In this document: positions 3,044-26,140 of the stretch, one piece after another
Layout: each line of letters opens with the position of its first letter
Position numbering within the stretch: the stretch's first letter is position 1
Virus record (IMG/VR): IMGVR_UViG_3300030328_002220
Span: 1 to 29,511 of that record
DNA: 29,511 nucleotides
Origin: a virus
Strand: one strand, 5' to 3'
Notes under the pieces: model-generated
Database searches by the model: none
Told to the model about the DNA's origin: nothing
The model's input: the letters and a program-made list of their open reading frames with translations, nothing else
Program-made: the position numbers and the translations under genes

Positions 3044-3685
3044 ATGAGTATTTTAAATCAAACAATAGAAAGCAAGATCAATCCTCACCAGGACACTCAA
3101 ATTGAAATAGGCATTGAGGGCATTAGTCCGTTGTTAATGCACGCATGGTCTGAAAAGGCTTTGCGTATGCTTGGACTGACTCCTGGAGAGAGGAAGAAGC
3201 TGCCGAAAGAAAAACGCACTCCAGAGGCTACAGCTAAAGAGTGTGCTTATTACACTGACGATGGTTCTTATGGCCTTCCATTAGTGGCTTTCAAAGCTGC
3301 TCTTATCAACGTAGCGCATAAAGATGAAGGCATAGAAAAAACTCTTGTCAGAAAATCTGTCTTCATCCCCAGCACAGATTCAAACATGTGCGTGCCTTTA
3401 TCATATGACAAAGAACCATATGTTCGTACTGACACCGTGCGTGTCGGAGCAGGTTCAACCGACCTTAGATATAGATTGTGCTTTGAGAGCTGGAGAGCTA
3501 CTTTCAAGCTTTGCATCGACACTTCTAGGTTATCAGTTCAGGATGTTGTCATCCTTGCCAACAAGGCAGGATTCTCAACTGGGATTGGTGATTGGCGACC
3601 GGAGAAGGGAGGAGAGATGGGACGTTTTCGCGTCGATACGTCTGTGCCTGTGACTGAAAGTCGTACCTTTCAAGAGGTGGCGTAA
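3044..3685 (+). CDS. Cas7/RAMP-like conserved phage protein, 213 aa
   Basis: The protein begins with a beta strand leading into GISPLLMHA (26-34), has YGLPLVAFKAALINVA (76-91), a strand pair around RVGAGSTDLRYRL (133-145), and ends with GIGDWRPEKGGEMGRF (180-195). The opening G-x-x-PLLMH and the closing G-x-G-D-[WF]-RPE-x2-G-x2-GRF pattern define a family found widely in phages and prophages beside recombination genes. The fold pattern and glycine-rich end remind me of Cas7-type RAMP proteins, which bind RNA as filaments. That link is inference, not proof. The stop overlaps the next start (TAATG), and a pentamer repeat array follows one gene later. The ribosome binding site is AGGAAA at 3031-3036. 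Confidence 0.65.
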   Translation: MSILNQTIESKINPHQDTQIEIGIEGISPLLMHAWSEKALRMLGLTPGERKKLPKEKRTPEATAKECAYYTDDGSYGLPLVAFKAALINVAHKDEGIEKTLVRKSVFIPSTDSNMCVPLSYDKEPYVRTDTVRVGAGSTDLRYRLCFESWRATFKLCIDTSRLSVQDVVILANKAGFSTGIGDWRPEKGGEMGRFRVDTSVPVTESRTFQEVA

Positions 3686-4188
3686 TGGAGGTTCGTTGGA
3701 GATCAGGCAGTCGCTTTAACAACATTAGAGCAGAAGATGCATACAACGAACTCGAAGATATCAAGCAGGATCAAGGGGGTGTCATAACCCCCGCTGCTGT
3801 TGTTGAACGAGCGAGAGATGACACCAATGTTCTGCATGATGGCTTTGAATGGAACAACGATGTTGCTGCTGATAAGTACAGACTGAATGAAGCGCGTAAC
3901 ATGATCCGATCTATTCATGTGATCAGAGAAGGTAAACCTGTTGAACCAGGTGTCCCTATTTATCACAACGTGGTGTATTCAAATGTCTCTGAAGATTCCA
4001 AGCAATCAAAAGTCTACATGTCGTTGGACGACATCATAAATGATCCTATTTCTCGAGATGATCTTTTGAAAAGAGCAATCAACGAAGCGATTGCATACAG
4101 AAAGAAATACCATCTTTTAAGCGAGATCTCTCAGATCAGCGAGGCAATTGATACCACTATTGGTAGTCTGGATTTGGAAATTAAATAA
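3685..4188 (+). CDS. Conserved phage protein, partner of the Cas7-like gene, 167 aa
   Basis: This 167-aa soluble protein carries a recognisable pattern at residues 33-77: VITPAAVVERARDDTNVLHD, then FEWNN, then ADKYRLNEARNMIRSI. It resembles a phage family in which an 'LHD-x2-EW-x4-AA-x2-YRL-x2-AR-x-LIRS' segment is followed by a strand and a helical C-terminus. I know no function for it. The start codon overlaps the stop of the Cas7-like gene (TAATG), with AAGAGGTGG at 3672-3680 as ribosome binding site, so the two are made together. Its stop at 4186-4188 directly abuts the pentamer array. Real gene, unknown role. Confidence 0.8.
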   Translation: MEVRWRSGSRFNNIRAEDAYNELEDIKQDQGGVITPAAVVERARDDTNVLHDGFEWNNDVAADKYRLNEARNMIRSIHVIREGKPVEPGVPIYHNVVYSNVSEDSKQSKVYMSLDDIINDPISRDDLLKRAINEAIAYRKKYHLLSEISQISEAIDTTIGSLDLEIK

Positions 4189-4492
4189 GGCAGGCGAGGT
4201 GAGGCGTGGCGGGTTGTGTTGAGTCCCGGTACGGTTAGGCGAGGTATGGCAGGCTAGGCGGGGTGAGGCTGGTCGAGGTCTGGCAAGGTGCGACAAGGCA
4301 AGGCAGGCATGTTCAGGTTAGGCCAGGTTGGGTGCGGTGCGTTCAGTCTTGGTATGACAAGGTATGGCAGGCGAGGTGAGTTGCGACATGGCATGGCTAG
4401 GTCCGATCTGGCACGGTAAGTCGAGGCAGGCAGAATTCTGTAGGGTACGATCGGGTTTGGCTACGTTTGGCCCGTTATGGCTTGGCAGGCGA
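4189..4492 (+). repeat. Noncoding array of 54-64 bp units made of G-D-Y-N-N pentamers
   Basis: Starting at the base after the upstream stop codon, the sequence is a run of pentamers of the form G-[G/T/A]-[C/T]-N-N, interrupted at intervals by a 4-nt GGCA that shifts the phase. GGCA followed by GGC occurs at 4189, 4248, 4302, 4366, 4425 and 4484. The units are therefore 59, 54, 64, 59 and 59 bp, each 4 plus 10-12 times 5. Of the 55 pentamers in the five complete units, 52 have G first, none has C second (39 G, 10 T, 6 A), and all 55 have C or T third. Positions 4 and 5 vary freely. The 4-nt steps and the period of 5 argue against coding. It ends where AT-rich sequence begins, 35 bp before the next gene. 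Confidence 0.93.
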
Positions 4493-4527
4493 GGATAAAA
4501 TTTGAAATTACTTAACTGGAGCACTAA

Positions 4528-4791
4528 ATGAGAACTATAGAAGAACACCAACTGGCAAAAAAACAAATTCTTGAAGAGTTTCAAGGAAAATTTCGAGAGT
4601 TTTTAGAACTCTACACCACTGATGAAGTTCATTTTGCAGAACTAGTACAGGAGTGTTTAGGTTTTTCTCTTATGTACATTTACGTTAATGCTGATAACCC
4701 AGAACAGGTTGATTTCTTTATTAGGAAAATGAAACAACTTGCGGCCAAAGAACGTGAAGAAATTTTTAATGATGAGGAGTTAATACACTAA
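4528..4791 (+). CDS. Small acidic helical protein, 87 aa
   Basis: An 87-aa acidic protein, predicted mostly helical (MRTIEEHQLAKKQILEEFQ at the start; FFIRKMKQLAAKEREEIF near the end), with a hydrophobic centre (LGFSLMYIYV) that is probably a buried helix rather than a membrane span. TGGAG at 4517-4521 is the likely ribosome binding site. It is clearly more AT-rich than the array before it and the helicase after it, so it may be a recent insertion. It ends one base before the helicase start codon, and a GAGGAG inside its last codons serves the helicase. Family not recognised. Confidence 0.72.
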   Translation: MRTIEEHQLAKKQILEEFQGKFREFLELYTTDEVHFAELVQECLGFSLMYIYVNADNPEQVDFFIRKMKQLAAKEREEIFNDEELIH

Positions 4792-25759: not shown

Positions 25760-26140
25760 TTATGCCGCTATGTCTGTCCAATTTGGTGTTTGTGAGTCAC
25801 TGACTGCTGACCAGCTAGGCGTTTGTGAATCACTGATCGCTGACCAATTCGGTGTTTGCGAATCACTAATTGACCCCCAAATGTTAATAACTCCAGCAGA
25901 ACCTGTTGCAGCTATCCCAGTAAGCTCTACCGTAATTCCTTCGCCTTGACCAATAGTTACTGAACCTACAGCAGAAGTTCCTGCAAGACCTGTAACCTCT
26001 ATGTCTTCTGCAATAGCAACAACAACACTACCTACAGATCCAGAAAGACCCGTAAAAGCTACATCCTGGTTATAACCACCAGAGTTGTAGGTTTGGGTTA
26101 TGCTGTTATAACCCCCAAAAAATATGGTTACATCGGCCAT
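25760..26140 (-). CDS. Structural protein with three SDSQTPNW repeats, 126 aa
   Basis: The N-terminal two thirds have small beta repeats of the type VTGLAGTSAVGSVTIGQGE. The last third has three copies of an 11-residue unit (SAISDSQTPSW and variants), ending in TDIAA. Marine phages often have such 'SQTPxW' proteins among head and tail genes. It is non-enzymatic and probably a minor virion or decoration protein. It shares one base with the stop of the 142-aa gene. The repeat is visible in the DNA as well (25778-25876). Confidence 0.72.
   Translation of the reverse strand: MADVTIFFGGYNSITQTYNSGGYNQDVAFTGLSGSVGSVVVAIAEDIEVTGLAGTSAVGSVTIGQGEGITVELTGIAATGSAGVINIWGSISDSQTPNWSAISDSQTPSWSAVSDSQTPNWTDIAA
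25778..25876 (-). repeat. 33-bp tandem repeat, three copies, inside a structural gene
   Basis: CCAATTTGGTGTTTGTGAGT at 25778, CCAGCTAGGCGTTTGTGAAT at 25811 and CCAATTCGGTGTTTGCGAAT at 25844 start successive 33-bp copies, equal to 11 codons each. The substitutions are mostly silent or conservative, so selection keeps the protein repeat. Copy number may vary by slippage or recombination. Confidence 0.85.

Follow-up and report, generated by a model that had tools for sequence, protein, structure and literature searches.

What is the strictly periodic block at positions 4189–4494 of the window, the whole 29,511-nucleotide stretch of viral DNA analysed here (IMG/VR record IMGVR_UViG_3300030328_002220)? 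Our analysis indicates that it is almost certainly a guide-RNA (vrRNA) array of a VIPR (Viral Interference Programmable Repeat) system in a marine tailed phage. The earlier note on this DNA asked that its novelty be tested; since VIPR was published in 2026 (preprint, April/June; PMC13142463, doi 10.64898/2026.04.26.720920), the locus adds a marine example to a kind already known. According to the preprint, VIPR consists of a phage-encoded CRISPR-RAMP-like protein, Vipr, and vrRNAs built from 9–16 tandem GGY/NN repeats. These vrRNAs read double-stranded DNA through their NN letters, skipping one base per step, and the genes of competing phages are repressed. RNA production, DNA binding, repression and phage interference are reported there for the SUSP1 and P. 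fulva systems. The features of the locus are as follows.

3044–3685, + strand: vipr, encoding a 213-aa Vipr protein with a predicted RAMP/RRM fold (phrog_4652)
3685–4188, + strand: candidate vipr-accessory gene (vap), encoding a helix-rich protein of 167 aa (phrog_15946)
4189–4494, + strand: putative vrRNA (guide) array, whole, with pentamer grammar and period-5 signal
4189–4247, + strand: guide unit 1, NN letters GA GA GT GG GT GA CC AC TA GA AT
4248–4301, + strand: guide unit 2, NN letters TA GG GA TG GA CT AA GC AA AA
4302–4365, + strand: guide unit 3, NN letters AT CA TA CA TG GC GC CA TT AT AA AT
4366–4424, + strand: guide unit 4, NN letters GA GA GC AT AT TA CC CT AC AA GA
4425–4483, + strand: guide unit 5, NN letters AG TC AG AC CG TT TA TT CC AT TT, plus one degenerate pentamer
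4484–4494, + strand: closing GGCA head followed by a stub of one pentamer, GGCAGGCGAGG, present also in the sister locus L003

The units start at 4189, 4248, 4302, 4366 and 4425, measure 59, 54, 64, 59 and 59 nt, and contain 11, 10, 12, 11 and 11 pentamers; all five heads read GGCA and then GGC. Among the 55 pentamers, position 1 is G in 52, position 2 is G in 39, T in 10, A in 6 and never C, and position 3 is T in 29 and C in 26 and never a purine, while positions 4 and 5 are mixed. AATTC, TGTAG and CGTTT in unit 5 depart from the GDYNN consensus. The earlier description of five units, their lengths, the 55 G-D-Y-N-N pentamers and the GGCA openings was exact to the base, but it overlooked the sixth, truncated head and stub at the end of the array. 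A pentamer HMM scored the array at 88.5 against its own base composition, whereas none of 300 dinucleotide shuffles scored above 12.3, and the strongest signals of a period-5 scan of the whole window all fell within the array.

Situated between genes and on the coding strand, the array begins right at the stop codon of the accessory ORF (4188); the next ORF starts at 4528. RNA folding of the array was no more stable than that of shuffles (z = 0.5), and neither the window nor 16 loci with arrays had an Rfam family at the gathering score, so no hammerhead ribozyme was found there. A promoter-like site was looked for and none was found. Elsewhere in the window, at 25760–26140 on the minus strand, 33-bp repeats encode SDSQTPNWSAI-type protein repeats and look ordinary.

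The gene upstream connects the array to VIPR. By profile comparison and structure prediction, the 3044–3685 product is a Vipr homologue with a RAMP fold. Its profile matched the SUSP1 Vipr protein in the PDB (36pp_D) in hmmsearch with an E-value of 2.3e-13 over profile positions 8–184, the single sequence matched 36pp Vipr in phmmer at 5.5e-8, and hhalign against the SUSP1 ORF gave 4.7e-15. The AlphaFold2 model (pLDDT 90.5) had Csm3/Cas7 RAMPs as its best Foldseek matches in the PDB (E about 4e-6 for Csm3). The protein has a glycine-rich loop, GFSTGIGDWRPEKGGEMGRF, close to its C-terminus and a conserved TDLRYR motif. The ORF at 3685–4188 shares one base with the stop codon of vipr and had tblastn homologues in 111 of the fetched loci; judged by this conservation, it is a conserved companion and a candidate vap gene. 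It showed no relation to the SUSP1 accessory ORF in hhalign, and Foldseek returned nothing below an E-value of 0.8 for its model, hence no confident fold match. Pfam, PHROGs and PADLOC gave neither neighbouring protein a named function, and neither had a Pfam or PADLOC defence match.

The pattern recurs far beyond this phage. Loci were fetched by DNA pattern alone: IMG/VR was scanned for exact matches to two versions of the grammar, and all totals are at least the numbers given. A further scan covered one genome for each prokaryote species and also yielded at least some matches; many of those in GC-rich genomes are due to chance. A reversed-sequence control of the array scanner gave some high scores and was dropped as a null, because a reversed array retains its period. 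Over 272 parsed arrays, the first two positions were G in 94% and 87% and the third was C or T in 95%, with positions 4 and 5 mixed. The only common break in the rhythm was a 4-nt step (1307 cases, 873 of them GGCAGGC), and the distances between steps were nearly all 4 modulo 5, mainly 39–69 nt and most often 49 nt. The 4-nt phase reset described earlier is therefore real and recurrent, although its role as a guide boundary, discussed below, had been missed.

The note had proposed looking for the same grammar in unrelated phages beside the same genes, and this is what was found. An iterated HMM detected Vipr in 190 of 334 loci among the matches listed. Where a strong array had 1.5 kb of sequence on either side (n = 109), a Vipr-family gene lay within 2 kb in 98, at a median gap of 49 nt, and a vap-like gene within 2 kb in 80. 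Genes for Sak4, DUF669, a helicase and a Cas4-like exonuclease do occur near the window array; the link to recombination genes that the note mentioned was far rarer in the wider sample, where Sak4, DUF669 and helicase matched 18, 4 and 20 of the fetched loci.

The positions that had been called free are better understood as the letters of a guide, spelling out its DNA target. Each array was split into guides at its resets, and array-masked phage DNA was scanned for the resulting NN strings with 0–4 bases skipped between dinucleotides. Exact matches of eight NN numbered 5, 77, 6, 6 and 14 for skips of 0, 1, 2, 3 and 4, and whole-unit matches at p<1e-8 numbered 3, 44, 6 and 6 for skips of 0 to 3. 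The independent count at skip 1 is 21 guides and not 77, because one guide of L076 alone gives many matches to homologous vipr genes. Counted as distinct guides, the matches were 3, 21, 6 and 6 for skips of 0 to 3, against means of 5.1, 6.9, 3.8 and 4.4 for NN-shuffled guides; the shuffled maximum at skip 1 was 13, and the other spacings stayed at the shuffled level. In 45 of 55 guide–target pairs, the NN letters kept a single fixed codon phase (34 sense, 11 antisense), and TA was depleted among the NN letters (0.74 of expected), as would be expected if the targets are sense-coding. Thus, targeting with a 1-nt skip holds for sister arrays of the same grammar. The rule was recovered independently, from arrays other than that of the window, and this supports the published code.

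Among the targets were the vipr genes of other phages, matched by guides of L076, L096, L253, L297 and L313, a share that is inflated because the locus sample centres on VIPR genes. The L076 guide corresponds to the stretch encoding the glycine-rich loop and the L313 guide to the DLRYR motif. In L052, a single site at about 994–1020, in a region resembling a Sak4-type annealing gene, was matched by guides of L191, L088 and L070 and by an overlapping guide of L261. A search of the window's five guides against 2.9 million viral contigs gave no convincing target. In that search, the 9-NN cores of units 1 and 4 had zero matches, and the 8-NN cores of units 2, 3 and 5 had 6, 12 and 10 matches with flanking letters at chance level. 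When the guides of the window and of L003 were searched locally in all loci, a skip of 1 did not outperform the other spacings.

Two observations bear on the reset. The L191 and L088 guides matched at 9 of 9 NN, with both ends of the match at GGCA, and when guides were read across the reset the letters of the next unit matched in 0 of 47 cases, in a sample dominated by one guide. Because the matches fill the units in the best cases and the letters of the next unit are unmatched, the reset separates guides, and we infer that GGCA marks a guide boundary or a processing site in the window array. Array ends consisting of GGCA and one to three pentamers were found in 47 of 135 arrays, and the window array ends likewise. 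Perhaps each RNA extends slightly beyond its own unit, and the terminal GGCA stub would then be accounted for; by analogy, such ends are compatible with “staggered arrays with overlapping vrRNAs”, named in the preprint as another VIPR architecture.

The window resembles the published VIPR systems in its phage location, in a small RAMP-fold Vipr with a glycine-rich loop and an adjoining candidate accessory gene, in tandem GGY-NN guides in the flanking intergenic region, and, through the sister arrays, in the 1-nt skip and in targets that include other VIPRs. Its units of 10–12 pentamers lie within the published range of 9–16 GGY/NN (YNNGG) repeats beside vipr. The type II system of SUSP1, the best studied, has separate vrRNAs of ~100 nt, each with a structured tail, as also seen in L335, whereas the units of the window stand head to tail with a GGCA reset. 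No conserved 3' tail was present in the window array, only GGCA stood between units, and no stable fold was found. Such a tail is a reported feature of the SUSP1/P. fulva type, and other array architectures are described as well, so its absence argues against type II and not against VIPR. The accessory proteins of SUSP1 and the window are also unrelated by profile comparison. We consider it possible, but on balance doubtful, that arrays with a GGCA reset form a VIPR architecture of their own: the head would act as a processing or end signal in place of a structured tail, each RNA would overrun its unit by a few bases, and the accessory family would have no known fold. In that case, these arrays would be a tail-less, very compact and multiplexed guide format.

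Class 1 CRISPR-Cas systems (Csm3/Cas7 with crRNA) share with the locus the RAMP fold, a guide array and a protein that presumably forms polymers along an RNA whose bases are left unpaired at regular intervals. The window differs in having no CRISPR repeats and spacers and no cas1 or cas2 by the array, and in a code broken every two letters. A CRISPR array was rejected, as no repeat exceeds GGCAGGC and no PADLOC or Pfam defence match was found in the two neighbouring genes.

Homologues of Vipr and the accessory protein are encoded by Mycobacterium phage Donkeykong and other cluster F phages and by the Gordonia phages UmaThurman, ODay and Ecliptus. BLASTN of the array against phages gave a weak match to Donkeykong alone, which later proved to be a genuine VIPR array. 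Like the window, Donkeykong has a GGCA-reset array, there directly upstream of the vipr homologue, but its guides are unlike those of the window. The Donkeykong array (L336 1969–2312; NC_051648.1 36889–37232) lies under the annotated gene 48, “hypothetical protein”; gene 49 after it is the vipr homologue and gene 50 is vap-like, and gene 48 is likely a spurious call.

At this locus, two other IMG/VR contigs, L003 and L116, have a sister array longer than that of the window, with a helicase 99% identical. Together with the many unrelated contigs that share the grammar, they exclude the assembly artefact that the note had named as a way for its observation to fail. The L003 units are partly kept, partly changed by whole pentamers and partly different: unit 1 is common to both except for one added GA, and the last seven NN of unit 5 are identical. 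L004 (helicase 94% identical) aligns with the window at 2003–2916 and from 4554 onward and has no vipr, companion or array; a GNAT-like ORF (L004 3310–3744) replaces the VIPR module. L002 (99%) has the same GNAT-like ORF at 3–392, where its contig covers the locus. The VIPR module is thus absent from near-identical marine phages.

The short period and the whole-pentamer indels between the window and L003 could be taken as signs of a slippage-prone microsatellite of no present function. We give this reading practically no credence: Tandem Repeats Finder called no array at 4189–4494, the units are not copies of one another, positions 1–3 are constrained while 4–5 vary, and the grammar and its GGCA delimiter recur beside the same gene in hundreds of unrelated loci, so that gene linkage and target matches both contradict it. 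The earlier proposals that selection acts on the pattern rather than on the sequence and that the block is neither an ordinary tandem repeat nor a strict CRISPR array were right. An element acting as DNA, namely a binding-site array or a recombination hot spot for module swapping with the pentamer as a protein footprint, would suit the intergenic position of the arrays, the fast turnover of units, the Sak4-type annealing protein encoded nearby and the presence or absence of the whole module between L003 and L004/L002. It is nevertheless very improbable, because the array and the Vipr gene share a strand in 97 of 98 linked loci, Vipr appears to be an RNA-binding RAMP protein and no recombinase, and the NN letters match DNA targets under the 1-nt-skip rule only; a recombination site would have no need for hypervariable letters that spell codons.

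A third reading accepts a genuine VIPR array and regards it as an inactive relict in this phage. The failure to find a target for the window guides among the viral contigs, and the three off-consensus pentamers of unit 5, speak for it. We nonetheless judge it unlikely, as the Vipr and accessory ORFs are intact and 97–99.5% identical to those of L003 at the protein level (Vipr 99.5%) while the guides have changed, a combination that looks like ongoing use.

We therefore favor a working VIPR array and, by analogy with the published systems, infer that the five units of the window, too, are expressed and work as published vrRNAs do. The array would be transcribed in the same direction as the upstream vipr and accessory genes, and one guide would be the unit between GGCA heads, with 10–12 GGY-NN repeats. 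Vipr subunits may align along this RNA, one per pentamer, with the GGY triplet held by protein and unpaired. The NN dinucleotides would pair with double-stranded DNA at NNx-NNx-NNx, the skipped target base usually being the codon wobble position, and the bound complexes would stop transcription of the genes of competing phages or satellites.

Only recently described, VIPR is a form of RNA-guided DNA recognition thought to be older than CRISPR. Almost identical genomes differ here in whether they carry the module and in how it is armed, so this clean marine-phage example gives direct access to guide turnover, and the GGCA delimiter offers a simple rule to find and split guides in metagenomes.

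Other loci show further layouts. Paired short GGCNN arrays without resets occur in L162 (428–503 and 1069–1144), L149 (1310–1374 and 1973–2037) and L193 (1618–1694 and 2358–2423); the members of a pair are spaced about 640–740 bp apart, enclosing about one gene's length, and are probably another VIPR layout. Very long arrays are found in L185 (7607–9177), L143 (6297–7022) and L315 (1–904), at least some of them free of resets for well over 100 pentamers. In L132 (8309–8668), a contig of 40% GC, GGYNN tracts of 10–14 pentamers alternate with a recurring AT-rich spacer, GGTATAAGTTTTTAAGAGG..., a layout that reads as separate vrRNAs with a repeated tail-like sequence. In L091, where the array is on the minus strand, GGGTTCGAATCCC lies close after the array at about 7194; it looks like the 3' half of a tRNA and is perhaps an attachment site.
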